A program made the translations under genes and the position numbers. The notes under the pieces were generated by a model. The model was not told the DNA's origin. It saw only the letters and a program-made list of their open reading frames with translations, and searched no databases. Source: Phycisphaerae bacterium (GTDB lineage: Bacteria > Planctomycetota > Phycisphaerae > JAJVII01). Taken from it: a DNA stretch of 64,000 bases. The DNA is taken from contig JAJVII010000006.1 in assembly GCA_022072085.1 (NCBI GenBank), positions 62,001-126,000 of the forward strand. Direction: 5' to 3'. The number at the start of each line of letters is the position of its first letter. Position 1 is the first letter of the stretch. This document shows positions 23,651-60,560 of the stretch, piece after piece.

Positions 23651-24121
23651 ATGAGCGAACTGCACCCGACCAACCAGGCGTTGCTCGTGGCACTGGACAA
23701 CCAGGCGGCCCGGACCCGACATGCGCTGGCGGACCTGCCGCAGGCGATCTACGAGGCCGCCCCCGGCGGCGACTGCAATTCGATCCGCAAGATCGGCGAG
23801 CACCTGCTCAAGCTGCGGCAGTTCCAGCTCAAGCTGCTGGAGTCGCCGCTGGCAGCCGACGTGCCGCCGCTTGACGAGGCGGCCACCCCTGCCCGACTGA
23901 CGGCGGCGCTGGACAAGGGCGAGGCCCTCGTGCGCGAGGCGATCGCCGGGCACGACCCAGCCGACTGGCATCGCACGCCGCCGGCGCCCCGCGAGGGGCC
24001 GTGGGGCGGTGAGCCGACGATCCGGCGGCTGATCCGCCCGCTGAACGATTTCACCAATCACATCGGCGGGATCCGGGCGATCCGCCGAATCCTCGGCTCG
24101 CCGGCCGAGAAGACGCAATGA
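23651..24121 (+). CDS. DinB-like four-helix protein (putative)
   Basis: The 156-residue, largely helical protein has [20 protein letters not shown], like the first metal-histidine helix of the DinB/YfiT superfamily, and ends [16 protein letters not shown] with a second histidine region. Many family members are metal-dependent transferases acting on thiols. It is divergent from the synthase gene, and its stop overlaps a possible upstream ATG of bioB, so it may be cotranscribed with bioB. The function is not determined. Confidence 0.5.
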
Positions 24122-41384: not shown

Positions 41385-41397
41385 GAAAAGAGATTCC

Positions 41398-41426
41398 GCC
41401 GCTGAGGCGCCGAGGCGCTGAGGCGA
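41398..41426. repeat. Iterated module between argH and thiL
   Basis: CCGCTGAGGCG is followed by CCGAGGCG and CTGAGGCG, three near copies of one 8-9-bp unit. It resembles single arms of the larger intergenic inverted repeats further right. Confidence 0.4.
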
Positions 41427-41430
41427 CCCC

Positions 41431-46611: not shown

Positions 46612-46654
46612 CTTTCGGGGGCAACGCCCGATGCGGGGAAGAACTGCGCATCGG

Positions 46655-46753
46655 TCACTTCACATTTCACATTGCTCAAAGAAGCGACGGCGCGGCCTGC
46701 TGTTGCCGTCTTCGATCCCCAATGTGAAATGAGCAATGCTCAATGAGAAATGA
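46655..46753. repeat. Intergenic inverted repeat (module CATTTCACATTG)
   Basis: CACATTTCACATTG (46661) and CAATGTGAAATGAG (46720) are inverted; the right arm continues with CAATGCTCAATGAGAAATG, further near copies. The loop is about 45 bases. Confidence 0.65.
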
Positions 46754-46947
46754 ATGCGGCCCCGGCATGTGGCCTGATCCGCGTCTCCCACCGCCTCATA
46801 CGCGTCCATCTGTGGCCCCAAGATTCATTCCGCACTCCCCGCTTGGTGTCCTCGGCGTATTCCTCTTGGCGCCTTGGCGGTTGTCTTCCCCCGGCCAGCG
46901 GGGATTTCCTCCAACTCCCGCTGGCGGCTCGGAAGAGGAGAGAGAGA
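46754..46947. other. Intergenic stretch with a single repeat arm
   Basis: No gene is seen between the inverted repeat and the proB stop. At 46842-46893 the sequence CTTGGTGTCCTCGGCG, then CTTGGCGCCTTGGCGG, repeats one short unit. It looks like a single arm of the same repeat class. Confidence 0.45.
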
Positions 46948-48078
46948 CTACTGGCCCAGCACGACCAGGTTGTCGCGGTGGATGACCTCGTCGCCGTGGT
47001 GGGCCGTCGGGCCGAGGCGGGCGGCGATCTCGCTGGTGCGGCAGCCGCGGATGCGGGCGACCTCGGCGGCGTCGTAGCGCGACAGGCCCCGGGCCAACTC
47101 GCGGCCGTCGGGCCCCAGCACGGAGATCACCTCGCCGGCTTCGAACTCCCCCTCGACCTCGACGATGCCGCTGGGCAGGAGGCTCTTGCGCCCCTCGACG
47201 ACCGCGCGGGCGGCGCCGGCGTCGACGTGGACCGCGCCGACGGGGCGGACCGTCATGCCGATCCAGCGGTGGCGGCTGGTCATCTTGCGGGCCGCGGGCA
47301 GGAAGACCGTGCCCACCGGCTCGCCAGCGAGGATGCGGGCGATGACGTTGGGCATCCGGCCGTTGGCGATCATCGCGATCTCGCCGGACTCGGTGACACG
47401 GCTGATGGCCTCCAGCTTGGACTTCATCCCCCCGCTGCCGAGGCTGGAGCGATTTCGGTTGGCTAACTTAGTCACCGCGGCGGTGACCCGCTCGATCAGG
47501 TCGATGCGCCGGCCGTCGCCGTCGAGCAGGCCGTCCACCACCGTCAGGACGATCAGCAGGTTGGCCCGCAGCAGGTTGGTCGTCAGCGCTGCGATGGTGT
47601 CGTTGTCGCCGAAGCGGATCTCGTCCACGGCCACCACGTCGTTCTCGTTGATGACCGGGATCGACCCGAAGCGGTGCAGCGCGTCGATGCTGTTGCGGAT
47701 GTTCAGGTAGCGGCTGCGGTTCTCGAAGTCCGCGCGGGTCAGCAATAGCTGCGCGGCGTGCACCCCGTGCCGCTGGAACGCGACCGAGAAGAGGTTCATC
47801 AGGTGCTTCTGGCCGACCGCGGCGGCGGCCTGAAGCTCGGGCAGGCGCCTGGGGCGGGTCGGCAGGTGCAGCTCGCCCATGCCCGCGCCGATGGCGCCGG
47901 AACTGACGACGACGAACCGTCGGCCGGCGCTGTGGTGGCGGGCGATCTGGCCGGCCAGTCGGCCGATCAGCCTGCGGTCCAGTCGGCCGTCGGCCCCGGT
48001 CAGCACGTTGGTGCCGATCTTGACGACGACCAGCCGGGCGGCGGCGACGACGTTCCTGCGGACTTCGGTCGAAGGCAT
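46948..48078 (-). CDS. proB: Glutamate 5-kinase
   Basis: The first enzyme of proline synthesis. The 376-residue protein has the amino-acid kinase domain (VVKIGTNVLT, VVSSGAIGAGM, INENDVVAVDEIRFGDNDTIAA, GSGGMKSKLEA) and a C-terminal PUA domain (KSLLPSGIVEVEGEFEAGEVISV). Full length and start are typical of ProB. It lies 3 bp after waaA in transcription order, so the two genes form an operon by spacing. Confidence 0.93.
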   Translation of the reverse strand: MPSTEVRRNVVAAARLVVVKIGTNVLTGADGRLDRRLIGRLAGQIARHHSAGRRFVVVSSGAIGAGMGELHLPTRPRRLPELQAAAAVGQKHLMNLFSVAFQRHGVHAAQLLLTRADFENRSRYLNIRNSIDALHRFGSIPVINENDVVAVDEIRFGDNDTIAALTTNLLRANLLIVLTVVDGLLDGDGRRIDLIERVTAAVTKLANRNRSSLGSGGMKSKLEAISRVTESGEIAMIANGRMPNVIARILAGEPVGTVFLPAARKMTSRHRWIGMTVRPVGAVHVDAGAARAVVEGRKSLLPSGIVEVEGEFEAGEVISVLGPDGRELARGLSRYDAAEVARIRGCRTSEIAARLGPTAHHGDEVIHRDNLVVLGQ

Positions 48079-48081
48079 GAC

Positions 48082-49371
48082 TCAGGACTCCATCAGTCGG
48101 CGGATCACGGCGACGGTGCGGTCGGTCGCTCCCTTGGCCTGCACGACGGCTTCGCGGGCGGCGGTGGCCATCCGTTTGCGGCGAGGTTCGTCGGCCAGAA
48201 GTTCGGCGACGGCCTGGCCCAGCGCGTCGCCGTCGGGCACGACGATCAGGCCGCCGCCCGACGACAGCCGCCGGACCGGCTCGACGAAGTTGTCGGCGTG
48301 CGGGCCGGTCAGCACGGGCAGGCCCAGGGCCGCGGCCTCCATCACGTCGCTGCCGCCCATCGGCACGAGCGATCGGCCGACGAACGCGATCGCCGAGAGG
48401 GCGTAGAACTTTCGCAGTTCCCCCATCGTGTCGCCCAGCACGACGGTGTCGCCGGCGAGCGGGCTTGGGCCCGGCGAGCCGTCGGCGTGTTCGCTCCGCC
48501 GCAGGCAGCCGAAGCCGGCCTTGGCGATCAGGGCGGCCACCTCGTCGAACCGCTCGGGCTTGCGCGGGATGATGGCCAGGCGGAGATTCCCGTGGCTCCC
48601 GCCCAGGCGGCGGTAAACGTCCAGCAGGATCGTCTCCTCGCCCGGGCCGGTCGAGCCGGCGACCAGCAGGCGGTGCGACGCGTCCAGGCCCAGCACGCCC
48701 GACAGCGCGTCGGCGCCGGCGACGCGGTCGGCCACCTCGGCCGTGTCATACTTCACGCTGGCGGTGACGGTGACGCGGTCAGTGGGCGTGCCCATCGCGA
48801 CAAAGCGGTCTGCGTAGGCCTGATCCTGCACGCAGGCGGCCGACAGGCGGCGGAACATCGGACGCAGGACCGGGCGGAAGCGACGATACCAGCGAAAGCT
48901 GTGGTCGCTCAGCCGACCGTTGGCGACGACGACGGGGATGCCGGCCCGCCGGGCCAGTCCGAGCAGGTTCGGCCAGACCTCGAGTTCCATCAGCACGATC
49001 ATGGCTGGTCGAATGCGGCGGAACGCCCGGCTGACAGCCAGCGAAAAGTCGAGCGGGTAGTGGAACCGCAGATCGTCGGGATAGAGCTTGGCCAGCCGGG
49101 CGAAGCCGGTGTCGGTGGTGGCCGAGAACGCGAGTGTGCAGCCGGGCAAGGCCTCGCGCAGCCGGGCGGCCAGCGTGACGGTGGCGTTGGCTTCGCCAAC
49201 GCTGACGGCGTGAATCCAGATGCAGGGCCCGGCGCCCTGGCGGCGCGGCACTGCACCGAAGCGGTGTGCCCAGCCGCCGCGCCACTTGCCCTGCACGGCC
49301 ATCCGCCAAAGCAGCATGGGCGTGTAGAGGAGCATGAAGATCAGGTACAGGAAGTCGACGACGTATCGCAT
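48082..49371 (-). CDS. waaA: 3-deoxy-D-manno-octulosonic acid (Kdo) transferase
   Basis: The enzyme adds Kdo to the lipid A precursor at the inner membrane. The 429-residue protein has an N-terminal membrane anchor (FLYLIFMLLYTPMLLW), the GT30 motif IWIHAVSVGEANAT, MELEVWPNLL, AGSTGPGEE, and the C-terminal FVGRSLVPMGGSDVMEAAALGLPVLTGPH. Its presence indicates a Kdo-containing lipopolysaccharide or relic of one. The ATG at 49371 is preferred to the longer frame. Confidence 0.92.
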   Translation of the reverse strand: MRYVVDFLYLIFMLLYTPMLLWRMAVQGKWRGGWAHRFGAVPRRQGAGPCIWIHAVSVGEANATVTLAARLREALPGCTLAFSATTDTGFARLAKLYPDDLRFHYPLDFSLAVSRAFRRIRPAMIVLMELEVWPNLLGLARRAGIPVVVANGRLSDHSFRWYRRFRPVLRPMFRRLSAACVQDQAYADRFVAMGTPTDRVTVTASVKYDTAEVADRVAGADALSGVLGLDASHRLLVAGSTGPGEETILLDVYRRLGGSHGNLRLAIIPRKPERFDEVAALIAKAGFGCLRRSEHADGSPGPSPLAGDTVVLGDTMGELRKFYALSAIAFVGRSLVPMGGSDVMEAAALGLPVLTGPHADNFVEPVRRLSSGGGLIVVPDGDALGQAVAELLADEPRRKRMATAAREAVVQAKGATDRTVAVIRRLMES

Positions 49372-49444
49372 CGGGTTTCGTCCACCAAAGTGGGAGATGA
49401 TACCGCATCGCGTGGGCAGGTGGAAGGGCGCCGCGGAGGAGCCG

Positions 49445-49590
49445 AGGAACACGGATTAAACCGGAAGGCACGGATTGCACGGAGGGGGAAGATGTGGAAG
49501 AGAAGCGGATCGGTTGCCCTCCCTCTTCTCAAGAACTCCAACGCCTTCGGTGGAATCCGTGTTCTTTCCGTGAAATCCGTGTTCCTCTTC
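49445..49590. repeat. Intergenic inverted repeat (module CACGGATT)
   Basis: The left arm from 49445 contains AGGAACACGGATTAAACC and CACGGATTGCACGG. The right arm 49552-49590 contains GGAATCCGTGTTC and GAAATCCGTGTTCCTC, their inverted copies. It separates divergent transcription ends around waaA and the RNase HI gene. Confidence 0.75.
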
Positions 49591-49604
49591 GGGACGGCGG
49601 TCGG

Positions 49605-50384
49605 TCAGTCGGCCGGCAGGAGGGCGACCTCGAAGCGGGCGCCGCAGCCGGGGCGCTGGCAGGTGACGACCAGCGGCTTGTCAGCCGGGCGGTCCATCAC
49701 GTCGGCTTCGTTGAACAGTCCGACCGCGGCGTTCAGCACGCCCTGAGCGGCGTAGACGCAGAGGCCGCCGGGGGTGGTCTGGCCGAACTCGAAGGTCTCA
49801 CCCGGCATCATCGTCGCGTCGCAGACCCGCGGGTCGCAGCCGAGGGTGACGCGGACCAGGACGCGGGGGGACGAGGGAGAGGTGGAGGAACCGCGATCTT
49901 CCGCTTGCGGCTCGCAAGACGAAGAGGAGTCGGCGTCGACGACGTCGGCCTTGGCGTTCATCGCGAGGTTGGCCATCTTGTCGGCGCGGGCGTTGCGTTC
50001 GCGGCGGACGTGTGTGATCTGCCAACTGTCGAACCGCAGCAGGGCCAACTGGGCCTGCTCGTGCAGGGGGATCAGGTCCTCGCTCTTGACGCGGTATTCG
50101 CCGGTGATCTGGCGGACCATGAGCTGGCTGTCGGCGAAGATCTCCAGCCGCTGCGGCGCGAACTGGGTCGCCAGTTCCAGACCGCCCAGCAGGGCGCGGT
50201 ACTCGGCGACGTTGTTGGTGGCGTGTCCGAAGAACAGGCCTCGCTCGATGAGGGGTGCGTCGCGCTCGTCGGCCAGCACGACGCCGCCGCCGGCGGGTCC
50301 GGGATTGCCGCGACTGCCGCCGTCGACGTAGAGCCGAAGCAGCGGGGCCGGCGTCCTGGACTTGAACTTGGCGGGGGCGCTCAC
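49605..50384 (-). CDS. RNase HI-domain protein with extra C-terminal domain
   Basis: Residues of about 15-140 are a complete RNase HI domain: YVDGGSRGNPGPAG, NVAEYRALLGGLELA (Glu), FADSQLMVRQITGEY (Asp) and RNARADKMANLA (last Asp). It would cleave RNA in RNA-DNA hybrids. After an Asp/Ser-rich linker a C-terminal domain of about 95 residues ends CQRPGCGARFEVALL and has no family I recognise. The start is taken as GTG 50384, because the longer frame overlaps the next gene region. It is 20 bp after a zinc-ribbon coiled-coil gene, a pairing common in several phyla. Confidence 0.82.
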   Translation of the reverse strand: MSAPAKFKSRTPAPLLRLYVDGGSRGNPGPAGGGVVLADERDAPLIERGLFFGHATNNVAEYRALLGGLELATQFAPQRLEIFADSQLMVRQITGEYRVKSEDLIPLHEQAQLALLRFDSWQITHVRRERNARADKMANLAMNAKADVVDADSSSSCEPQAEDRGSSTSPSSPRVLVRVTLGCDPRVCDATMMPGETFEFGQTTPGGLCVYAAQGVLNAAVGLFNEADVMDRPADKPLVVTCQRPGCGARFEVALLPAD

Positions 50385-50404
50385 GCGTGGTCTTTCCGGA
50401 GAGG

Positions 50405-51142
50405 TCAGCGGGCCGAATCGCCCAGGTAGAGCAGGCGGCCGCACACGCCGCAGGTCTGGACGTCCTCGCGCCCGGATCGCAGGGCGTTGATAGTCTCAAG
50501 GGTCAGGCCCATGTTGCAGCCGGAGCAGATGTACTCGTCGCGCTTGGGATTGACCTTGGCGACCGAGGCGGTGGCGTCGCCGTCGTTGGCCTCGGCCAGC
50601 CGCTCGAACTGGGCGACGATGTCGCCGGGCAGACCCGCGGCCGCCTGACGGCGCTTCTCCTGGATCTGTGCGAGCTGGTTTTCCAGTTCGTGGGACTTGG
50701 CCTGGGCCTCGGACTGCACCTTGGCCAACTGGGTCTTCTCCTGCTCGCCGACTTTCTGGAGGTCCGCAAGCTGGCCCTTCAGTTCGTCGACCTCGGCCAT
50801 CTTGCGGAGGGCGGTCTCTTCGATGCCGCCGGAGTCGGCCTTAAAGGTGTTGATCTCGCGGAGCAGCGCGGAGTATTCCTTGTTGGTCTTGGTCGTGTTC
50901 AATTGGGCCCGCAGGCGCTGGATGCTTTCCTCGCGGCTCTTGAGTTCCAGTTCGGCGGCGCCGGCTTCGGACTGGGCCGCCTGGAGCTTCTGGCGGAGTT
51001 GGAGCAGGTCCTGGTCGTGCTCGGCGACCTTGCGTTCCTGGATCCTGGAACGCCGCTGCTGGGTTCTGATGCGGTCCCTGAGTTGATAGAGCTGGCGGGT
51101 GAGCTGGTCGTACTGTTGCAGGTTCTCGGTCAACGTTCCCAT
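50405..51142 (-). CDS. Coiled-coil zinc-ribbon protein (C4-type, CT398-like)
   Basis: The 245-residue protein is an antiparallel coiled coil over about 170 residues, followed by a four-cysteine ribbon (YICSGCNMGLTLE, then CGVCGRLLY). This layout matches the CT398/YbgI-neighbour family often called 'zinc ribbon domain protein' and linked to secretion or RNA/DNA transactions. It is directly upstream of the RNase HI gene, which supports a nucleic-acid role. ATG 51142 is chosen; the longer frame runs into a repeat. Confidence 0.8.
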   Translation of the reverse strand: MGTLTENLQQYDQLTRQLYQLRDRIRTQQRRSRIQERKVAEHDQDLLQLRQKLQAAQSEAGAAELELKSREESIQRLRAQLNTTKTNKEYSALLREINTFKADSGGIEETALRKMAEVDELKGQLADLQKVGEQEKTQLAKVQSEAQAKSHELENQLAQIQEKRRQAAAGLPGDIVAQFERLAEANDGDATASVAKVNPKRDEYICSGCNMGLTLETINALRSGREDVQTCGVCGRLLYLGDSAR

Positions 51143-51234
51143 CAAGGCGATTCCTCTTCGTGAATCAAGAGCAATCCCGGCATTATGGTGTTGCGGGTAT
51201 CGTTTGGCAACGGCAATTTTTTTCGGAGGCGTAA

Positions 51235-51388
51235 GAGGGACACGGATTACGCGGGAAGACACGGATCGCACGGAGGGGGGGAGGAGAGTGGATACAGGAG
51301 AGAGGTGTTGAGGCGTAGCCGGATTCTTCTTGCATCGCCGATCGATCCGCGTAATCCGTGTCTTCCCGTGTAATCCGTGTTCCTCCCC
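51235..51388. repeat. Intergenic inverted repeat (module CACGGATTAC)
   Basis: GGACACGGATTACGCGGG and AAGACACGGATCGCACGG on the left (51238 on) are matched by GATCCGCGTAATCCGTG and CCCGTGTAATCCGTGTTCC on the right (51345-51388). It has the same module as at 49445 and 57569. Confidence 0.78.
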
Positions 51389-51478
51389 TCCCCACGGCCG
51401 CCGCGGAAGCTTGACAGGGTCGCCGGCTGCGAATAGGGTGAAGAATCGGCTTCACAGCCCTGGAGAGCGATTGAACGA

Positions 51479-52300
51479 ATGAATCCGCGGGTCCTGACAA
51501 TGCGACTGCTGGGCGTGATCGCCCTGGCTGCGACGGCGGCGCTGGCCGGTTGCCAGGCCGTTGCGATGAGCACGCAGCCGATGTATTCGTCCGAGTCCAT
51601 CTACGCCGATCACGACCGCGACCCGGACCCGGCCATCTCGACGCCCTACCTCGAACCCGGCGCCCCCGGCGGCGAGGAGATGCCGGCAACCGCGGTCGGC
51701 GGGCCGGCGGCGACCTCCGGCAGCGAAATCAAGCCGCCGCCCGGGCCGGTCTACACGACGATGGACCCGGTGACCGACGCGCCAGGCTTCCGCGTCTGGA
51801 TCGACGGCAACGAGCCGGCCGTAACGCTGGGCTCGCGGTCGGGCCAGGTGGCGTGGGACATCTCGCCCGAGCCGTCGCTGAAGTTTGCGCTGCGGCCGCA
51901 GATGGGGACCTTCCGGGCGGCGACGATCCAGATTTACCGTATCGTGGGCGACCGCCTGGACGTGAGCAGCGGGGTGACGATCACCGAGCCGGGCGAACCG
52001 GCGGTGCTCACGCCGGAAAAGGAGATATTCCTGCCCCGGCCTGGCGGGCGGGTGGTCATCCGCCATGCCGCCAGCGGGCAGGTGCTGCCGTGGTATACGC
52101 TGGCCAACGACGCCCAGTATGAAATCCAGATCGTCATCGGGGGAACCAAGGAGCCCGACGCTTTGAGCGTGCGGGTCCACACCGTGCCCAAGGGCCGCAA
52201 ACCGGGCCCGCCGCCGACCACGCAACCGGAGGGCCCTTCGGGGGAGGAAACGCCCAGGCTTCCGCCGGGGGTTATCATTCCGGACCTGCCGAAGGACTGA
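51479..52300 (+). CDS. Lipoprotein of unknown function
   Basis: The 273-residue protein has the signal MRLLGVIALAATAALAGC with a good lipobox (ALAGC). The mature part has a Pro/Ala/Gly-rich region, then a beta domain (residues about 95-230, FRVWIDGNEPAVTLG and YTLANDAQYEIQIVIGG), and a Pro-rich tail (PPPTTQPEGP). This tail style recurs in several exported proteins here. Function is unknown. Confidence 0.7.
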   Translation: MNPRVLTMRLLGVIALAATAALAGCQAVAMSTQPMYSSESIYADHDRDPDPAISTPYLEPGAPGGEEMPATAVGGPAATSGSEIKPPPGPVYTTMDPVTDAPGFRVWIDGNEPAVTLGSRSGQVAWDISPEPSLKFALRPQMGTFRAATIQIYRIVGDRLDVSSGVTITEPGEPAVLTPEKEIFLPRPGGRVVIRHAASGQVLPWYTLANDAQYEIQIVIGGTKEPDALSVRVHTVPKGRKPGPPPTTQPEGPSGEETPRLPPGVIIPDLPKD

Positions 52301-52357
52301 TCTAACTCATTTCTATATAGATTCTTATGTGATCAAGCCCTGGCGTGGGCTATAGAT

Positions 52358-52386
52358 TTGCATTGTCCCGGCGATTGGTGTATTAT
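52358..52386 (+). promoter_or_regulatory. Sigma-70-type promoter
   Basis: TTGCAT (52358-52363) and TATTAT (52381-52386) are exactly 17 bp apart. A transcript would begin near 52393 and include the structured region before the zinc-ribbon gene. Confidence 0.6.
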
Positions 52387-52392
52387 GAGCCC

Positions 52393-52500
52393 TTCGTCGC
52401 GCTGGGTGAACATTCTGGTTCAGCTTCAGGCAGGGAGGAACGGCCTGCTCGGGTTGTTCCCCTGTCTGACTCCGCCTGAGGCCCCGGCAAGTTGGGGTCG
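52393..52500 (+). ncRNA. Structured leader or small RNA (unassigned)
   Basis: A strong hairpin is formed by TCAGGCAGGGAGGAAC (52426-52441) with GTTCCCCTGTCTGA (52456-52469). It has 14 pairs and a 2-base bulge, with a GC-rich apical loop. A smaller TGAAC/GTTCA hairpin precedes it and CCCC/GGGG follows at the 3' end. It resembles no class I can name; SRP RNA was considered and not supported. It may regulate the downstream small zinc-ribbon gene. Confidence 0.4.
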
Positions 52501-52515
52501 ATGGGAGAAATGACG

Positions 52516-52680
52516 ATGCGACGCTTCGAGGTACCCAGCAAGCCTGAGCGACCGGGAAGTTACCAGTGCCGCAGTTGCGGGCACATCCTGCAGGGCGTGA
52601 CGATGTCCACCCTGCCGCCCTGCCCGCTGTGCGGTGCGACGGACTTCACCAGGCTGCAGGAAACGCCTGCGAGCAAGTAG
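52516..52680 (+). CDS. Small zinc-ribbon protein (54 aa)
   Basis: The 54-residue protein carries CRSCGH and CPLCG, two CxxC knuckles 17 residues apart, so it should bind one zinc. The start ATG at 52516 lies eight bases from GGGAGA; earlier in-frame ATGs (52501, 52510) are possible. It follows the structured leader and precedes rimO by about 200 bp. The role is unknown. Confidence 0.7.
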   Translation: MRRFEVPSKPERPGSYQCRSCGHILQGVTMSTLPPCPLCGATDFTRLQETPASK

Positions 52681-52877
52681 TTAGTGACGCAGCTACGGCG
52701 CCCACCGACGACGGCCATCGTCCGGCGACGGCGCATTTGCACCCGGCTTGACCCGCACGTCCGACGCGCCGCCGCGTTGGCACTCCCCTGCCGCAGTTGC
52801 TCCGGGCCGATTCCCTCGATGACGGCTATACTCTTGATTGGGCTCTGACCCGGGCCGCCGACGTTACGGAGCGGTAA

Positions 52878-54362
52878 ATGGCCTCGAAATCCCACAGTCG
52901 CAGCAAGCCCCTGGCCGACCAGCCGATGACCGTCTCGTTCGTCTCGCTTGGCTGCCCCAAGAACCTCGTGGATAGCGAGAAGATGCTCGGCCAACTAGCC
53001 GAGCACGGCGCCATCCCCACCGCCGACGAGGACGACGCCGACGTGATCGTCATCAACACCTGCGGCTTCCTCGAAGCCAGCAAGCAGGAGTCGCTGGAGC
53101 ATATCCGCCAGGCCGTCGCCCGCAAGGAAGCGGGCCTCGCCCGCCGGGTCGTGGTCGCCGGCTGCCTCGCCACGCGGATGGGCCGCGAACTGCTTGACGC
53201 CGTCCCCGGCATCGACGCGATCGTGGGCGTCAACCAGCGCGACGAAATCCTCCAGGCCGTCGGCGTCGGCCCGCAGCGCCCCGCCGCCGCGGACGTCCAG
53301 GTCCACCTCGGCAAGTATCACCCCTTCGTGCAGATCGACACCGGGCGGCTGCGGCTGACCCCGCGGCACTACGCCTACCTGCGGGTCAGCGAGGGGTGCT
53401 CGCAGGGCTGCTCGTTCTGCACGATCCCCTCGATCCGCGGGCCGCTGCGCTCCAAGCCGGTCGAGGCTATCGAGGCCGAGGCTCGCGAGCTGATCGCCGA
53501 CGGGGCTCTGGAACTCAACCTCATCGGCCAGGACACGACGAGTTACGGCGCGGACATCGGCTTTGCCGGCGGGCTGGCCGAGTTGGTCCGCCGCCTCGAC
53601 CGCCTCGACGGGGCCTGCTGGATTCGCCTGCTCTACGCCTACCCCTCCTGCTTCACCGACGAGATGATCGACGCCCTGGCGGCGGCGGAGCATTTCGTGC
53701 CCTACGTGGACATGCCGCTCCAGCACATCAACGACCGGCTGCTCAAGCGGATGAAACGCAAGGTGACGCGGGCCCAGACCGAGCAGCTGCTCGGTCGGCT
53801 GCGCGAGCGGATCCCCGGCCTGTCGCTGCGCACGACGTTCATCACCGGCTTTCCCGGCGAAACCGAAGCCGAGCACCGCGAACTGCTGGAGTTCGTGCGC
53901 GACTTCGCCTTTGACATGCTGGGCGTCTTCTGTTACTCGCAGGAGAAGTCGACACCGGCCGGCCGCATGGCCGACCAGGTCGCCGCCGACGTCAAGCAGC
54001 GACGGCAAGCCGAGTTGATGGCCGCCCAGCAGGAAGTCGTCCTGCGGCGGAACCGCTCGCTGGTCGGAACCGAGACGCAGGTGCTCGTGGACCGCATTGC
54101 CGGTCCGGACCTGCTGGTCGGCCGAACGCCGGGCCAGGCGCCGGAGGTGGACTCGCTGACCTGGCTGGCCAAGGCCCGCGGGTTGAAGCCCGGCCAGTTG
54201 AGGCCGGCCCGCATCGTCGGCTTCGAGGACTACGACCTGATCGCCGCCCCGGCCGGGCGACCGCTGGCCGAAACGACTGAATCGGCCGACCTGCTTCTGC
54301 CGATCTATCAGCCGATTGGCGTGGCGTCGGCCGCCGGCCCGGACCCGGACGATCAGACCTGA
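52878..54362 (+). CDS. rimO: Ribosomal protein S12 methylthiotransferase
   Basis: This radical-SAM enzyme adds a methylthio group to Asp of ribosomal protein S12. The 494-residue protein has the N-terminal UPF0004 domain (SLGCPKNLVDSEKMLGQLAEHG, INTCGFLEASKQES, AGCLATRMG) with three cluster cysteines. It has the radical motif SEGCSQGCSFCTIPSIRGPLRS, and the TRAM domain at the C-terminus. The NTCGFLE and RGPLRSK segments favour RimO over MiaB. The next gene, pgsA, follows by 12 bp. Confidence 0.93.
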   Translation: MASKSHSRSKPLADQPMTVSFVSLGCPKNLVDSEKMLGQLAEHGAIPTADEDDADVIVINTCGFLEASKQESLEHIRQAVARKEAGLARRVVVAGCLATRMGRELLDAVPGIDAIVGVNQRDEILQAVGVGPQRPAAADVQVHLGKYHPFVQIDTGRLRLTPRHYAYLRVSEGCSQGCSFCTIPSIRGPLRSKPVEAIEAEARELIADGALELNLIGQDTTSYGADIGFAGGLAELVRRLDRLDGACWIRLLYAYPSCFTDEMIDALAAAEHFVPYVDMPLQHINDRLLKRMKRKVTRAQTEQLLGRLRERIPGLSLRTTFITGFPGETEAEHRELLEFVRDFAFDMLGVFCYSQEKSTPAGRMADQVAADVKQRRQAELMAAQQEVVLRRNRSLVGTETQVLVDRIAGPDLLVGRTPGQAPEVDSLTWLAKARGLKPGQLRPARIVGFEDYDLIAAPAGRPLAETTESADLLLPIYQPIGVASAAGPDPDDQT

Positions 54363-54374
54363 GGACATGCAATC

Positions 54375-55016
54375 ATGAAGGCGCGTCTTCCGAACCTGAT
54401 CACGTCGGTGCGATTCGTGCTGGCCCTCTTCTTTTTCGGATTCATGGAGGCCTACCACCACGGCGACAGCGGCTCGGCCCGGATTCTGGACATCGCATTC
54501 GCGCTGTTCTTCATCACCGCCGTCACCGACGTGCTGGACGGCTACCTCGCCCGCAAGTGGAACCAGGAGTCCACGTTCGGCCGCATCGTTGATCCGCTGG
54601 TCGACAAGGTGCTGGTGATCGGGGCGTTCATTTACCTGGCCAGCTCGCACTTCGCGGTTGTGTCGGCCGACGGGCTGCGCAACGCCTCGGGCGTCGCGGT
54701 CTGGATGGTCGCCCTGGTGCTGGTGCGCGAGCTGGTGGTGACCGGCCTGCGCGGGTTCAGCGAGTCGCAGGGCCTGGACTTCAAGGCCACCATCCCCGGC
54801 AAGCTCAAGATGTTCTTCCAGTGCATGGCCGCCGGGGCCGCGATGCTGGTCACCAACCACATGAGCGACATGACCTGGGCCCTGTGGCTGCGCAGCGGGC
54901 TGCTCTGGGCGATGGTCATCATCACCTTCTTCTCGATGCTGGTCTACCTGGAACGGGCCCGGACGCTGTTCACGATGGCCCTCAAAGGCAAGGCCGGCGA
55001 GAAGGGGAACCCATAA
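54375..55016 (+). CDS. pgsA: CDP-diacylglycerol-glycerol-3-phosphate 3-phosphatidyltransferase
   Basis: The membrane enzyme makes phosphatidylglycerol phosphate, the precursor of phosphatidylglycerol. The 213-residue protein has about five helices and the CDP-alcohol transferase motif DVLDGYLARKWNQESTFGRIVDPLVDK. In this, D..DG..AR........G...D...D is complete. It starts LPNLITSVRFVLAL as usual. It is cotranscribed with rimO by spacing. Confidence 0.9.
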   Translation: MKARLPNLITSVRFVLALFFFGFMEAYHHGDSGSARILDIAFALFFITAVTDVLDGYLARKWNQESTFGRIVDPLVDKVLVIGAFIYLASSHFAVVSADGLRNASGVAVWMVALVLVRELVVTGLRGFSESQGLDFKATIPGKLKMFFQCMAAGAAMLVTNHMSDMTWALWLRSGLLWAMVIITFFSMLVYLERARTLFTMALKGKAGEKGNP

Positions 55017-55265
55017 GTCCACCACAGAGGCACGGAGGCACAGAGAAAGAACTCATCCGCAGATTACGCCGATTACGCAGATTTGGCGGAAGAAGAGAAG
55101 GAGGAACCGCGAATTCACGCGAATGGACTCGAATGAAGAGAGCGAGGATTCAGATGTCCGATTCCTCGTTCGCGTCAATTCGCGTCCATTCGCGGTTCGT
55201 CTCCGTCCTGTTCTCCCGTCTTTCTGAATCTGCGCAATCGGCGTAATCTGCGGATGCCCTCTCTT
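55017..55265. repeat. Two nested intergenic inverted repeats
   Basis: The outer pair is CCGCAGATTACGCCGATTACG (from 55060) with GCGCAATCGGCGTAATCTGCGG (to 55253). The inner pair is GGAACCGCGAATTCACGCG and CGAATGGACTCGAAT with AATTCGCGTCCATTCGCGG. The left flank has GGCACGGAGGCACAGAG. No coding frame is supported across this 280-bp gap. Confidence 0.78.
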
Positions 55266-55300
55266 CTTGGTCCCTCCGTTGCGAGCGAGGATTCTTCCAC

Positions 55301-56251
55301 ATGCGAACCGCTGTCGTCCTGGTGCTCCTGCTGGTCCTGATCGCCGGGGCCGCGCCCGCGCCGACCTCCGCGCCGACGTCGCAACCGGACACCGCCGCCG
55401 CTCAGGTCCCTGCCCGCCCGATCACGCCGCTACAGGCCGTCGTGATGGGCATCGTCGAGGGCGTCACCGAGTATCTCCCGGTCAGTTCGACCGGCCACCT
55501 GATACTGGCCGGGCACTTCCTCGGCCTGCCGGACAGCGACGCGGTCAAGGCCTTCGAGATCGTCATCCAGGTTGGCGCGATCCTGGCAGTACTTGGGCTC
55601 TACCGTCGCCGGGTCGGCCAGATGCTGTGCGGCCTCGTCGGCCGCGACCGGGGGGGCCTGAAACTGTTCGTCAACTTGCTGATCGCCTTCCTGCCCGCGG
55701 CGGTCATCGGACTGGCGACGCACAATTGGATCAAGGCCCACCTCTTCGCCCCCTGGCCGGTGATCGCGGCGCTGGCTGCCGGCGGCGTGCTGATGATAGC
55801 CGTGGACCGCCTCCGCCGCTGGCCCGGCGTGCGGATGCGGGCGGTCACCGTGGACACCATGACCTGGCGGATCGCCCTGGTCGTCGGCCTGGCCCAGGTG
55901 CTGGCGATGTGGCCGGGCACGTCGCGGTCGATGATCACCATCGTCGCGGCTATCCTGGCTGGCATGGAGATCAAGTCGGCGGCCGAGTTCAGTTTCCTGC
56001 TCGGCCTGCCCACACTGGCTGGGGCGAGCCTGTTCGACTCCCTCAAGCACGGTGGCGAGATTGTGCATGCGGCGGGCCCGCTGGGCCTGCTGCTGGGGCT
56101 GGTCGTCTCGTGGGTCGTCGCGGTCATCGCGGTCAAGGCCTTCGTCGCGTGGCTTAACCGGCACGGCCTGTCGCCCTTCGGCTACTACCGCATTGCCCTT
56201 GCGGGGTTGTTCGTCGTGATGACGCTGCTGGTGGGGATCAAAGGGTTCTGA
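55301..56251 (+). CDS. uppP: Undecaprenyl-diphosphatase with exported N-terminal extension
   Basis: The enzyme recycles the lipid carrier for cell-wall and surface polymers. The 316-residue membrane protein has both BacA motifs, EGVTEYLPVSSTGHLIL and WPGTSRSMITI, and about eight helices. The first 43 residues are unusual: a signal-like helix (AVVLVLLLVLIAGAAPA) followed by a Pro/Thr/Ser/Gln-rich linker (TSAPTSQPDTAAAQ). This adds an extra span and may change topology. Bacitracin resistance is a known result of overexpression in this family. Confidence 0.9.
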   Translation: MRTAVVLVLLLVLIAGAAPAPTSAPTSQPDTAAAQVPARPITPLQAVVMGIVEGVTEYLPVSSTGHLILAGHFLGLPDSDAVKAFEIVIQVGAILAVLGLYRRRVGQMLCGLVGRDRGGLKLFVNLLIAFLPAAVIGLATHNWIKAHLFAPWPVIAALAAGGVLMIAVDRLRRWPGVRMRAVTVDTMTWRIALVVGLAQVLAMWPGTSRSMITIVAAILAGMEIKSAAEFSFLLGLPTLAGASLFDSLKHGGEIVHAAGPLGLLLGLVVSWVVAVIAVKAFVAWLNRHGLSPFGYYRIALAGLFVVMTLLVGIKGF

Positions 56252-56257
56252 GCGGCA

Positions 56258-56400
56258 ATGTCGAATGTCGAATTCCGAATGTCGAATAGACGACGAATCA
56301 CGAATGACCAGACAGATCGAAGGCGAGTCGCGGCCTCATTCGTCATTGGGCATCCGTCATTCTCTCGTCACTCGGACTTCGTGATTCGTCATTCCGCCGG
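56258..56400. repeat. Intergenic inverted repeat (modules CGAATGTCGAAT and GAATCACGAATG)
   Basis: The left arm repeats AATGTCGAAT three times then ACGAATCACGAATGAC. The right arm has CATTCGTCATTGGGCATCCG, then TTCGTGATTCGTCATTC. The repeat reaches the stop codon of the minus-strand glycosyltransferase. Confidence 0.72.
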
Positions 56401-57522
56401 CGCCGTTGGCGGCTCCGCCTCGTTCATCCTGATCGTCACCTGGGCGACGACGGCGAAGCGGATCGTCCGCGTAATCTGTGCGACGGTCACGCCGGCCAGG
56501 TGATGGGACTGGACGTAGTCGCGGGCGTTTCGGCCGATATTTCGGCCGAGTTCCGGTTCGTCCAGCAGCCGCTGGAGTACCATCGTCATCTCGGCCTCGT
56601 CGCCCTGGGTCAGTTCCACGCCGTTGACGCCGTCGGCCATCAGGTTCATCGCCCCGCCGTTGCGGGCGACGACGGCGACGCCGGCGGCCATCGCCTCCAG
56701 CAGCCGCAGGTCCAGATGCCGGTTGACCTCCGGCTGCACCAGCACGTCGATGCCCGGCCAGAGGCGGTCCATTCGCTTGAGGTCGGGAACCAGAGTGAAG
56801 CGGTCGCCGAGACGCCGGGCCTGGGCCGACCGGCGGATGCGCCGCTCAGCCGACCCCGAGCCCATGACGAAGTAGACCGCGTCGTAGCCGCGATCGCTCA
56901 GGTGTGAGAACGCCGCCAGGAGTTGATCGAGGCTGCCCGGGTCGGCCGACCCCAGGCCGATGATGCCGCGCGTCCGCTCGCCGGCGAACGCGGCGATCCC
57001 CTCGTGCATGTGGACCCCCAGCGACACCTGCTGCACGGCCTTTTCGTCGGCGGCGCTCAGCCGCTTGCGGACACGGTCGGCCAGGCTCTCGCTGCCGGCA
57101 AAGACGGTCTGCAACGCCGGCCCCGCCGACGCAGCCGGGGCGACCTCGTCCTCACCCATCACGATGACCGCCAGCGGCACGTGCAGTGCGGCGGCGAACC
57201 GCGCCCCCAGGTCGGCCAGCCGCCCGCTGGCTGCCAGCACCATACGCACTGGCTCGTCCGCCAGCCGGGCAATGACCGGCTGGACGATGAATCGGCGGAG
57301 CAGAGGCAGGCGGCTGCGCGTCAGGATCATGCGGGCCAGCAGGTGCTCGGGAATCCCCCCGGCCAACTCGACCCCCGGCGGGCCGACGAGCATGGGGCTG
57401 ATGCCCTCATCGACCAGACCCAGCAGAAGCGAGTCCAGCCACGGGCCGTAGCGGTCCGCGGCGTCGCGGTCGATCAGCACAGCCACCGCGTGCGTGAATC
57501 TCGCCTTGCGATCCTTGGCCAT
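56389..57522 (-). CDS. Glycosyltransferase, GT4-like
   Basis: The 377-residue protein has the GT-B C-terminal half: RGIIGLGSADPGSLDQLLAAF, YFVMGSGSAERRI, RFTLVPDLKRMDRLWPGIDVLVQPE, and LRLLEAMAAGVAVVARNGGAMNLM with the usual EAMA and GG pattern. It probably transfers a sugar from a nucleotide donor to a glycan or lipid. The N-terminal half is divergent. It is convergent to uppP, not operonic with it. Confidence 0.8.
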   Translation of the reverse strand: MAKDRKARFTHAVAVLIDRDAADRYGPWLDSLLLGLVDEGISPMLVGPPGVELAGGIPEHLLARMILTRSRLPLLRRFIVQPVIARLADEPVRMVLAASGRLADLGARFAAALHVPLAVIVMGEDEVAPAASAGPALQTVFAGSESLADRVRKRLSAADEKAVQQVSLGVHMHEGIAAFAGERTRGIIGLGSADPGSLDQLLAAFSHLSDRGYDAVYFVMGSGSAERRIRRSAQARRLGDRFTLVPDLKRMDRLWPGIDVLVQPEVNRHLDLRLLEAMAAGVAVVARNGGAMNLMADGVNGVELTQGDEAEMTMVLQRLLDEPELGRNIGRNARDYVQSHHLAGVTVAQITRTIRFAVVAQVTIRMNEAEPPTAPAE

Positions 57523-57568
57523 GCGTGCATTGCACTGGCTGGCGCGCGGTTTGTCAATCGAGAGGGCA

Positions 57569-57745
57569 AGAGGTCCACGGATTTCACGGGCGGAACACGG
57601 ATTCCGCGGGAAGACGAGAGGAGACAGGAGAGAGGAGGGAGAGAAGACAAGAGAGAAGAGACGCTGGCGCGATTCCTCCTTATCGTACCTCTGTTACATC
57701 TGTGCAATCCGTGTCCGCCCGTGTAATCCGTGTTCCTCCGAAGGC
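57569..57745. repeat. Intergenic inverted repeat (module CACGGATT, third copy)
   Basis: The left arm GTCCACGGATTTCACGGG followed by CGGAACACGGATTCCGCGGG is matched by CAATCCGTGTCCGCCCGTG and TAATCCGTGTTCCTCCG on the right. It has the same module as 49445 and 51235, with a longer purine-rich centre (GAGACAGGAGAGAGGAGG). Confidence 0.78.
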
Positions 57746-57811
57746 TCGCAGTCTGCCCGTTGACCGCGGCGACACCGCCCGGTACAACGTCACTTTGCGC
57801 AAGGAGCCTTT

Positions 57812-58483
57812 GTGAGCAACGGACCGCAAGCGGAGATGGAGTTGAAGGGCGAAGACGTCCCGACGGTCTTCGTGCCGCGCTGGCACCTGCACCGCCGGCT
57901 CTATGACTGGGTGATCGGGCTGGCCAACCGGCGGCACGCCTCGGTCTGGCTGGCGACGCTGAGTTTCGCCGAGTCCAGCTTCTTCCCGATCCCCCCCGAC
58001 GTGCTGCTGATCCCCCTGGTGATGGGCAACCGCAAGCGCTGGCTGCGCTTCGCGACCGTGTGCAGCGTTGCCAGCGTGCTGGGGGCGGTGCTGGGCTACA
58101 TCATCGGCTGGTTGCTGTGGGACGCCCTGCACGTCTACTTCTACAAGATCCCCGGCATCACGCCCGGCGGCGTCGAGCACGTCAAGGAACTCTACGCCGC
58201 GTGGAGTTTCTGGATCGTCTTCACCGCCGGCTTCACGCCGATACCGTTCAAGCTTATCACCATCACGGCAGGCCTGTTCTTCGGGGCCAACCCGGGGCTG
58301 TTCCTCGTTTTTCTGCTGGCGTCGGCGGTCAGCCGATCGGCCCGGTTCTTCCTGGTCGCGGCCCTGCTCTATCGCTACGGCCAGCCGATCAAGCGGTGGA
58401 TCGACAAGTATTTCAACTGGGTCTGCCTGCTGTTTACCGTGCTGCTGGTGGGCGGATTCGTCGTCGTCAAGTACGCCTTCTGA
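57812..58483 (+). CDS. DedA/VTT-family (YqaA-like) membrane protein
   Basis: The 223-residue protein has five to six helices and the VTT-family fingerprints ESSFFPIPPDVLLIPLVMGN and FTAGFTPIPFKLITITAG, with VSRSARFFLVAALLYRYG near the end. Relatives are lipid scramblases or C55-isoprenyl phosphate flippases, and the family conserved ETSFFPIPP-like motif is intact. GTG follows AAGGAG. uppP nearby handles the same lipid carrier, a possible functional link. Confidence 0.85.
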   Translation: MSNGPQAEMELKGEDVPTVFVPRWHLHRRLYDWVIGLANRRHASVWLATLSFAESSFFPIPPDVLLIPLVMGNRKRWLRFATVCSVASVLGAVLGYIIGWLLWDALHVYFYKIPGITPGGVEHVKELYAAWSFWIVFTAGFTPIPFKLITITAGLFFGANPGLFLVFLLASAVSRSARFFLVAALLYRYGQPIKRWIDKYFNWVCLLFTVLLVGGFVVVKYAF

Positions 58484-58491
58484 GTCCCGCG

Positions 58492-59073
58492 ATGGCCCCT
58501 CACGATCCCGACGCCGCGCTGCTCACGCCCGAACAGGGGCGGGCCCTCCTCCGGCTGGCCAGGCTGACCGTCGAGGCCGACGTGCGCAGCCGACCCCTCC
58601 CCCCGCCGCTGGAGGGCCCCCCGTTCGATCGGGCCCTGGGCCTGTTCGTGACGCTGCGGGTCGATGGCGACTTGCGCGGCTGCATGGGCACGTTCGCCGC
58701 CCGCGAGCCGCTTGGCCGACTCGTGCAGGAAATCGCCCTGACCAGCCTGGCCGACCCGCGGTTCGAGTTCCGGCGAATCGACCCGGCGGAACTGACCCGG
58801 CTGAGGATCGAAATCTCCCTGCTCTCGCCGATGTGGCCGACGCGCGACCCGCTGCGGGAAATGGTTCCCGGCCGACACGGCGTCTACGTACGCAAGGGCG
58901 GCCGATCCGGCTGCTTCCTGCCGCAGGTCGCGACCGAGCAGGGCTGGACCGCGGCCCAGACGCTGGCCCACTGCTGTTCCGGCAAAGCCGGCCTGCCCCC
59001 CGATGCCTGGCGCGACCCCGGCGCGGAGGTCTTCCTGTTTACTGCTGAGATTCACGAGGAAGCAGAGGGGTGA
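58492..59073 (+). CDS. AMMECR1-domain protein (AmmeMemoRadiSam A)
   Basis: The 193-residue protein has the AMMECR1 fold: LFVTLRVDGDLRGCMGTFAARE with the RGCMGTF-type signature, SLADPRFEFRRIDPAELTRLRIEISLLSP, and GCFLPQVATEQGWTAAQTL. In many genomes it is linked with a Memo domain and a radical-SAM protein; neither is near here. The ATG directly follows the DedA stop. The function is still unknown. Confidence 0.88.
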   Translation: MAPHDPDAALLTPEQGRALLRLARLTVEADVRSRPLPPPLEGPPFDRALGLFVTLRVDGDLRGCMGTFAAREPLGRLVQEIALTSLADPRFEFRRIDPAELTRLRIEISLLSPMWPTRDPLREMVPGRHGVYVRKGGRSGCFLPQVATEQGWTAAQTLAHCCSGKAGLPPDAWRDPGAEVFLFTAEIHEEAEG

Positions 59074-59170
59074 GTTTCGAGTTTCAAGTTTCGAGTTTCA
59101 AGTGAAGAGAAGGAAGCCGTCGTTCCCGCTTTCTCTTTCACTCGAAACTTGAAACTCGAAACTTGTCACT
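59071..59170. repeat. Intergenic inverted repeat (module GAGTTTCAAGTTTC)
   Basis: The left arm has GAGTTTCGAGTTTCAAG repeated, ending AGTGAAGAGA. The right arm has CTCTTTCACTCGAAAC, then TTGAAACTCGAAACTTG. It is the most regular of the repeats and overlaps the stop codon of folC. Confidence 0.8.
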
Positions 59171-60560
59171 CGCCGGCGAACCACTTCGCTTCCGCGTTCA
59201 GTTTCATCACCAGTCCGACCAGGTAGAGCGAGCCGGTGACCAGCACCATGTCGTTCGGGCCGGCCAGGTTCAGGGCCATATCCATCGCCATCGGGGCGCT
59301 GAGCGACAGGTAGCGCCGCACGCTCGGGCCCAGGATCGCCAGCAACTCCAGCAGGCTGGCCGGGTCCGCGCGGTGCGGGTGGTCCGATTGCGTCGCGACC
59401 ACGATGTCCGCGGCGTTGGCCAGGGCGCCCATCAGCCCGCGGCGGTCCTTGTCGGCCAGGCAGCCGGCCACCACGATCAGCCGGCGGTAGTCGAACGTCT
59501 CGGGCAGCGCCCGCAGCACGGCCCGCAACGCCTCGACGGTGTGGGCCCCGTCCAGCACGATCCAGGGCCGCCGTCCGCGGAGGTCCAGCCGCCCGGGCCA
59601 GCGGGCCTGCTCCAGGCCGGCCATCGCCCCGGGCAGGTCCATGCTCCAGCCGCCTTCGAGCAACTGATCGACCAGCCCCAGCGCGACCGCCGCGCTGACC
59701 GCCTGGTGTCGGCCCAGCAGCGGCACGATGAACTCGTCGAACGTCCGCGAGGGAGTCGCGACCTTCGCCCGCCAGCGCCGCGGGCCGGCGCCGCCCGTCG
59801 GCTGTGTCGACAGACTGATCTCGCGGCCGACCGTCAGCAGCGGGGCCATCTGCTCGCGAGCGAACCGGGCAATGACCTGGCCGGCCGCCGGACGCTGGGG
59901 GGCGCTAACGGCCGGCACGCCCGGCTTGATGATCGCGGCCTTCTCGCCGGCGATGCTCTCGATGGTGTTGCCGAGCTGACGCATGTGATCCATGCCGATG
60001 GGGGTGATCGCGGCCGCCCGGGGGGTGACGACGTTGGTCGCATCCAGCCGCCCACCCAGCCCGACCTCCAGCACAGCAAGGTCCACCCCCATTGCGTCGA
60101 GCGCGACGAACGCGACGGCCGTCATCAGCTCGAAAAAGGTCGGCGGGTCATCGGCAAGGCGGTCCAGAGCCGGCGCGACGCGGTTCATGGCCGCGACGAA
60201 CGCCGCCTCGCTGATAGGCTCCTCGACGACGCGCCCGCCGCGGCGTTCGAGCAGGACGATCCGCTCGCGGATGTCCACCAGGTGCGGGCTGATGTAGAGC
60301 CCGACGCGCTTGCCTCCACCGGCGGCCAGGTAGGCGGTCATGGCCGCGACCGACCCCTTGGCGATCGTGCCGGCGACGTGGACGCTGGCAAAGTTGTCCT
60401 GGGGGCGGCCGAGCGCGTCGCACAGCCGCTGCATTCGCCCGAGGTCGTACGAGCCGGCATGGTGGCGGACGCGGGCCATCCGCTCGTAGTCGGTGCGGGT
60501 GAACAGGTAGTCCAGCGCCTGGGCGTAGGTTTCAAAGGCGGTCGGTGCAGCCTGGGTCAT
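59166..60560 (-). CDS. folC: Folylpolyglutamate / dihydrofolate synthase
   Basis: The 464-residue Mur-ligase-fold enzyme adds glutamate to folates. It has SVHVAGTIAKGSVAAMTAYL, YISPHLVDIRERI, PTFFELMTAVAFVAL, AVLEVGLGGRLDATNVV and VLDGAHTVEALRAVL. The P-loop is unusual: the family GTNGKGS reads GTIAKGS, losing the glycine before the lysine. The rest is complete, so it is probably active. The stop lies within an inverted repeat. The DHFS/FPGS split cannot be read from sequence. Confidence 0.88.
   Translation of the reverse strand: MTQAAPTAFETYAQALDYLFTRTDYERMARVRHHAGSYDLGRMQRLCDALGRPQDNFASVHVAGTIAKGSVAAMTAYLAAGGGKRVGLYISPHLVDIRERIVLLERRGGRVVEEPISEAAFVAAMNRVAPALDRLADDPPTFFELMTAVAFVALDAMGVDLAVLEVGLGGRLDATNVVTPRAAAITPIGMDHMRQLGNTIESIAGEKAAIIKPGVPAVSAPQRPAAGQVIARFAREQMAPLLTVGREISLSTQPTGGAGPRRWRAKVATPSRTFDEFIVPLLGRHQAVSAAVALGLVDQLLEGGWSMDLPGAMAGLEQARWPGRLDLRGRRPWIVLDGAHTVEALRAVLRALPETFDYRRLIVVAGCLADKDRRGLMGALANAADIVVATQSDHPHRADPASLLELLAILGPSVRRYLSLSAPMAMDMALNLAGPNDMVLVTGSLYLVGLVMKLNAEAKWFAGE

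Follow-up and report, generated by a model that had tools for sequence, protein, structure and literature searches.

The intervening sequences (IVS) of 23S rRNA that encode an S23 protein (S23p) are the closest described relatives of the elements reported here. The IVS of Coxiella burnetii is ~430 bp long and has terminal inverted repeats that form a stem. Tandem heptamers (GACAGAT) precede its S23 ORF, the ORF is decaying, and excision by RNase III has been shown (PMC4990558). More than 25 years after such IVS were discovered, neither their function nor their origin is clear (PMC4990558). Intergenic heptad arrays have been reported from Xanthomonas (GGGAATC) and Nostoc (GGGGA(T/C)T), mostly as four units, with 70-75 inverted pairs per Xanthomonas genome. 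In that paper heptameric repeats were found to be over-represented in bacteria, the arrays were read as quadruplex-forming, and the text mentions neither "four helix" nor "S23" (PMC4692102). For Geobacter metallireducens, one paper describes paired "global regulator binding sites" (classes 1-3) lying as opposite-strand pairs of four tandem octamers, three tandem TCTCCGTS or five tandem heptamers. They are proposed there to be IHF/HU-type sites unique to that genome, and the passages on them describe no gene-bearing form (PMC2700814). A regulatory role has been proposed for the TAACTGA repeats of Beggiatoaceae (PMC4679880). REP/BIME sequences with their RAYT (TnpA-REP) protein, and MITEs, are palindromes scattered between genes; they come in autonomous and non-autonomous forms and have a dedicated protein.

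The elements described below share with the Coxiella IVS the protein family, the approximate length and the stem-forming inverted repeats; a gene for the S23/four-helix-bundle protein is found in the long-loop heptad elements. They differ from it in that all copies in the analysed window lie between protein genes and none in a 23S rRNA gene, most are gene-less, and a second family has an unrelated nuclease-like protein and another repeat unit. We take as the best reading that they are intergenic relatives of the S23-coding IVS. As in Xanthomonas and Nostoc, they include intergenic heptad arrays, and the Geobacter TCTCCGTS unit is the reverse complement of the CACGGAG-type units found here (PMC2700814). 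Unlike REP sequences and MITEs, their arms are tandem arrays, their proteins are not known transposases and they do not follow the GTAG rule; a GTAG-type tag is found at the end of only four of 31 solo hairpins. A search of the open-access literature found no paper that joins the repeats to the two protein families. Within that literature the pieces have been published separately and the link between repeat and protein is the new part.

Modular hairpins in the window

The window is a stretch of 64,000 nt, positions 62001-126000 of one contig in a genome of 5.49 Mb (72 contigs). An initial annotation had described imperfect inverted repeats built of short, near-tandem units in the gaps at 46655, 49445, 51235, 55017, 56258, 57569 and 59071. 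An inverted-repeat search and shuffles confirmed modular inverted repeats at all seven, with weaker folding at 46655 and 56258. The features are listed below.

46649..46753, unstranded: heptad-class inverted repeat without a gene; units CACATTT / AATGTGA-AATGAGC-AATGCTC-AATGAGA; arms 46649-46674/46720-46745 and 46655-46678/46730-46753 (24-26 nt, 77-79%); neighbours a convergent short-chain dehydrogenase gene and an amino-acid kinase + PUA gene (proB-like)
49444..49587, unstranded: CRCRRAK-class hairpin without a gene; units CACGGAT and CACGGAG; between RNase H-like and KDO-transferase genes, co-directional on the - strand
51235..51385, unstranded: CRCRRAK-class hairpin; arms of 40 nt, 88% complementary; loop 71 nt; flanking genes divergent
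55017..55256, unstranded: composite CRCRRAK-class element between co-directional CDP-alcohol phosphatidyltransferase and BacA/UppP genes; outer arms 55054-55083/55227-55256 (CGCAGATTA units); inner arms 55101-55139/55163-55201 (CGCGAATGGA units) nested in the loop of the outer hairpin; an extra left triplet, CACAGAG-G-CACGGAG-G-CACAGAG, at 55023-55045
56255..56395, unstranded: heptad-class element without a gene; left arm of AATGTCG units, right arm CGTCATT-type
57570..57739, unstranded: CRCRRAK-class hairpin without a gene; CACGGAT units; flanking genes divergent
59069..59172, unstranded: heptad-class hairpin; GAGTTTC/AAGTTTC units; perfect 24-nt arm core; begins at the stop codon of the upstream gene

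By length, the repeats at 51235, 55054/55101, 57570/57589, 59073, 49444 and 46649/46655 rank among the window's top 25 inverted repeats. Against Markov shuffles of its own intergenic region, the combined inverted and tandem signal reached z = 8.8 at 59071, 8.7 at 55017, 6.2 at 56258, 5.1 at 51235, 4.0 at 49445 and 3.0 at 57569. The 46655 locus is masked by a spurious ORF in this test and was seen in the inverted-repeat search instead. The element at 56255 has a tandem signal of z = 5.5 at period 7, and it has its module in common with the S23-gene element L015/L293. The nested layout of 55017 recurs, with seemingly unrelated loop sequences, at L029:9708 and L030:7594. No Rfam match was found within the window.

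The view that the loci follow one design with different units is supported, and the units are not arbitrary; they sort into two classes. The loci at 46655, 56258 and 59071 are made of 7-nt heptads (CACATTT, AATGTCG and GAGTTTC). Those at 49445, 51235, 55017 and 57569 are made of CRCRRAK plus 1-3 nt, such as CACGGAT, CGCAGAT, CGCGAAT and CACAGAG. The description of the stretch from 1 to 39 kb as free of such loci is borne out; its single match above z = 4 is a coding-edge signal at 24058. The claim that the repeats abut stop codons applies in part: 55017, 56258 and 59071 do so directly and 46655 and 49445 at a short distance, whereas 51235 and 57569 lie between divergent genes.

Of the functions offered in the initial annotation, long RNA hairpins are supported by strong predicted stems. 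Five loci fold far beyond shuffles (z = -11.0 at 55017, -9.2 at 59071, -8.4 at 51235, -6.5 at 57569 and -6.1 at 49445); folding is weak at 46655 (-1.4) and 56258 (-1.6). Intrinsic terminators did not hold up. A run of five T just past the stem is present in 0 of 31 solo hairpins and a terminator scan was blank at these sites.

Genome distribution and the gene-bearing form

Genome statistics were taken from ~844 kb of the 5.49 Mb. Separate testing of each of the 232 intergenic regions in 464 kb gave about 45 with z ≥ 3.9, the main periods being 7 (20 regions), 9 (9), 10 (6) and 8 (5). Sorted by the orientation of the flanking genes, 42 of these lie between tandem or convergent genes and three between divergent genes, compared with 84 and 40 among the other regions of at least 80 bp (p = 5e-4). 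The window hairpin at 51235 is one of the three divergent cases; 57569, divergent too, falls under the cut. The elements sit mostly downstream of genes and in operons, aligned with transcription. The loci are neither unique in the genome nor randomly positioned relative to genes.

Over 844 kb, a strict, gene-blind detector picked up 40 elements; shuffled DNA gave none. Their loop lengths are bimodal: 31 have loops of 150 nt or less, none falls at 150-300 nt, and nine exceed 300 nt. The gene in a long loop follows the arm class: each of the six heptad elements in this group codes for a four-helix-bundle/S23 protein (PF05635), and two of its three CRCRRAK elements code for a GxxExxY protein (PF13366); the third (L283:14430-14799) is without a recognisable gene. 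Starting from the genes gave the same picture: this genome has 14 PF05635/PF13366 genes, and inverted modular arms enclose 12 of them. The remaining two (L013 and L014) have an 8-nt modular hairpin directly upstream. The full-length form is ~450-500 bp and consists of a modular arm, a single gene and an inverted modular arm. Heptad arms, mostly of four to five units, flank the S23 gene; CRCRRAK arms, mostly of three units, flank the GxxExxY gene. All copies in the window are without a gene.

Heptad arrays at S23 loci across phyla

We surveyed 80 S23 loci; by record title they come from many phyla (Acidobacteriota, Planctomycetota, Chloroflexi, Firmicutes, Bacteroidota, Proteobacteria, candidate phyla and Spirochaetes), and the layout agrees with that in the window genome. 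At z ≥ 4.5, tandem arrays are present in 132 of 160 S23 flanks, with period 7 in 121 of these and period 8 in nine. Among control flanks 2 kb away, 35 of 276 are tandem, 13 of them with period 7. In 43 of the 80 loci the left and right arms pair with each other above the 99% level of a mismatched-pair null, and many others are visibly similar. Heptads are more variable than CRCRRAK units. Their inward-reading consensus is NNYAGKK (4.22 bits, compared with at most 3.31 after letter shuffling), and AG[GT] is present in 82 of 124 heptad units and in seven of 124 on the complementary strand. Four or five units are found in 79 of 124 heptad arms. Plasmid-borne S23 genes of Nostoc, Trichormus and Anabaena are likewise flanked by inverted tandem arms, and two Xanthomonas S23 loci (L116 and L132) carry CGGGAAT arrays. 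At L096, L077 and L090 the arrays are very long and unequal between arms, which indicates that slippage does occur.

CRCRRAK arrays at GxxExxY loci

The GxxExxY survey covered the window's own phylum. Of 31 tandem flanks, 29 have a period of 8-10. Two CRCRRAK units are found in 20 of 30 upstream and 22 of 30 downstream GxxExxY flanks; elsewhere they are found in 1 of 80 upstream and 0 of 80 downstream flanks of S23 loci and in 0 of 138 controls. Arms with three CRCRRAK units make up 34 of 60, and the units are spaced by 8, 9 or 10 nt. The units include CACAGAG, CGCAGAG, CACGGAG, CACGGAT, CACGAAG, CACAGAT, CACGAAT and others.

Where both neighbours are on the same strand, the element gene shares their direction in 50 S23 loci and opposes it in five; for GxxExxY the counts are 20 and three. 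The strand calls behind these counts are approximate, with some loci mis-called. This orientation is in keeping with an element that needs the host operon to be transcribed, or that is tolerated by way of that transcription.

Gain, loss and apparent copying

Related species were compared at orthologous sites, with groEL and dnaJ named by reading of their sequences. A GxxExxY element of ~500 bp is found between groEL and dnaJ in G013 and G031, two of seven species of one genus. The same site has only short spacers in G004, G156 and G155 and other apparent small ORFs in G154 and G153. An S23-type element lies between groES and groEL in G031, where G013 has ~67 bp. G013 also has a solo CRCRRAK hairpin of ~100 bp that five of six congeners lack (18-45 bp in G031, G004, G154, G155 and G153), and G156 has a different insert at that site. 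The filled and empty sites were aligned, at a divergence too great to read exact ends, a target-site duplication or the direction of change. Elements with a gene and elements without one alike come or go as whole units. Together with the dispersal of copies over many contigs, this supports the earlier suggestion of a mobile element.

Two S23 copies in the window genome share 646 bp at 81% between unrelated flanks. One follows an intact tRNA-Pro and the other retains only the last bases of the tRNA. This pair looks like a copied element. Of 30 solos, 15 resemble an arm belonging to a gene-bearing element of their own genome much more closely than they resemble foreign arms of their class (5% level); the other half match no gene-bearing element of their own genome. 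For the window hairpins with GAGTTTC (59071) and CGCAGATTA (55017) units, no gene-bearing partner was found in this genome. A dependence of the elements on the two genes is suggested by a single gene-free genome, G064, which has neither gene among its listed matches and 0 elements in 200 kb. Element density is uneven among gene-carrying genomes; G013 and G031 each have two in 400 kb.

Encoded proteins

In the GxxExxY family D69 and K81 are invariant and E79 is conserved in at least 90%, so that residues of the PD-(D/E)XK type, D...(E/D)xK, are present on the predicted fold. The model has a pLDDT of 94 and its best structure matches are Cas4-type and lambda-type exonucleases (prob 0.8-1.0), the best of them modest (E 0.003, TM about 0.5). 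A search by sequence for a solved GxxExxY structure found none. The conserved D69/E79/K81 and the resemblance of the model to Cas4 and lambda exonuclease make nuclease activity likely. The S23 protein belongs to TIGR02436 and is distant kin of Avd of diversity-generating retroelements (NF033474 match). Its closest solved structure is 2gsc. The protein shows no evident catalytic site; in Xanthomonas campestris it forms a toroidal homopentamer (PMC4990558). The match between ring size and the number of heptad units is suggestive only.

Proposed explanation and alternatives

With moderate confidence, we explain the window hairpins as copies, lacking a gene, from two families of small intergenic elements that are alike in design and selfish or mobile, each family with its own protein. 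Both movement of the elements and binding by their proteins are what we infer from these patterns. The tandem units may form a binding array that the protein of the same element occupies with several subunits, each subunit of the S23 ring taking one heptad, for example. By acting on the hairpin in its DNA or RNA form, that protein would copy or maintain the element, and the GxxExxY protein could cut nucleic acid itself. By analogy with the 23S rRNA IVS, RNase III or a similar enzyme may trim the hairpin out of host mRNA, so that insertion would be tolerated. The gene-less hairpins would then be non-autonomous derivatives.

A wider proposal is put forward tentatively, as possible though rather doubtful in its full extent. 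These families may represent a bacteria-wide kind of mobile element, in which inverted tandem arrays enclose a gene and the gene's protein sets the unit length and core of the arrays, with four to five heptads for the S23 ring and three CRCRRAK units for the GxxExxY nuclease. Such an element would spread through transcribed DNA without a recognised transposase, recombinase or reverse transcriptase and leave solo hairpins. The 23S rRNA IVS would be particular instances of it, as would the heptads of Xanthomonas, Nostoc and Geobacter. Two common small protein families of undefined function would gain a concrete partner, an array of fixed unit length, and the scattered reports of heptameric repeats a single explanation. 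If the rule joining protein and repeat is true, the role of S23 proteins and of the 23S rRNA IVS becomes open to simple tests.

We regard as unlikely, though the strongest of the alternatives, that the hairpins serve the host as elements for processing and stability at mRNA 3' ends and between cistrons, with S23 and GxxExxY as RNA-binding regulators and the spread due to ordinary duplication under selection. Strong RNA stems and placement downstream of or between co-directional genes speak for this reading. Similar paired sites were taken for global-regulator sites in Geobacter metallireducens (PMC2700814), and a regulatory role was proposed for the Beggiatoaceae repeats (PMC4679880). However, the sites are not kept among congeners and the modules vary by locus, unlike those of a shared regulon. 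The protein gene also lies within the element, as it does in the Coxiella 23S rRNA IVS, where the ORF is decaying (PMC4990558).

Passive expansion of simple sequence is very improbable. Here slippage would make the units, hairpin-templated repair would mirror them, and the S23 and GxxExxY genes would be cargo that tolerates such spots. The long, unequal arms of L096, L077 and L090 and the over-representation of heptameric repeats in bacteria (PMC4692102) are consistent with it, yet it fails to predict one period and one consensus per protein family across phyla, the bimodal loops, or the absence of elements from the gene-free genome.

Least probable of all are REP-like elements that a Y1 (HuH) transposase or a reverse transcriptase moves in trans: the genome has three Y1_Tnp genes and one RVT_1 gene, and a modular hairpin lies within ~1.4 kb of two of the three Y1 loci, but no Y1 gene is inside a modular hairpin, the gene-bearing elements hold S23 or GxxExxY instead, GTAG ends are as rare as noted above, and RVT_1 matches are missing from G031, G013, G051 and G107, all of which have both S23 and GxxExxY genes. 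TnpA-REP, named as a partner in the initial annotation, is therefore not favoured, as the genes inside the repeats are PF05635 and PF13366. Dependence on a reverse transcriptase had been considered because of the relation between S23 and Avd; it was rejected on the four genomes that carry the element genes without an RVT_1 match.

Apparent copies and probable array growth

S23 elements carry a four-helix-bundle/S23 gene (PF05635), typically between inverted arms of heptad units; two of them look like related copies within the window's own genome (G000).

S23 elements L013 and L014: G000 contigs C17 and C48

They share 81% identity over 646 bp and their flanks differ. One lies 3' of an intact tRNA-Pro(GGG) gene. 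The other is accompanied by only the 3' end of tRNA-Pro(GGG) and the hairpin after it, as if this segment had been copied or moved along with the element. The S23 genes at loci L096, L077 and L090 are flanked by heptad arrays of great length, with units repeated tens of times and, on one side, almost without mismatch; such arrays point to rapid expansion by slippage.

Variants of the CRCRRAK class

CRCRRAK units form the inverted arms around the GxxExxY gene (PF13366). One element of this arm class has a long loop.

L283:14430-14799, G000 contig C7: CRCRRAK-class element, loop of 312 nt

No recognisable gene was found in the 312-nt loop; the element is possibly a decayed GxxExxY copy or a carrier of different cargo. 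Within the window, a solitary tandem array, GCGCTGAGGCGCCGAGGCGCTGAGGCG, occupies 41385-41430 between two flanking genes, apparently as one CRCRRAK-like arm with no clear partner.

Genomic settings

Both element families occur in a single chaperonin operon of G031, a genome from a seven-species genus.

L245:15890-18488, the operon stretch with both: S23 element in the groES-groEL gap, GxxExxY element in the groEL-dnaJ gap

At L134, L093 and L153, which come from different proteobacterial genera, inspection by eye placed S23 elements immediately 5' of a putative guaA, in the guaB-guaA gap, a position that suggests a common hot spot or an old insertion. On Anabaena sp. 90 plasmid pANA02 (L358), an S23 element with a long unit array lies within a type I-D CRISPR operon, between cas6 and cas4.
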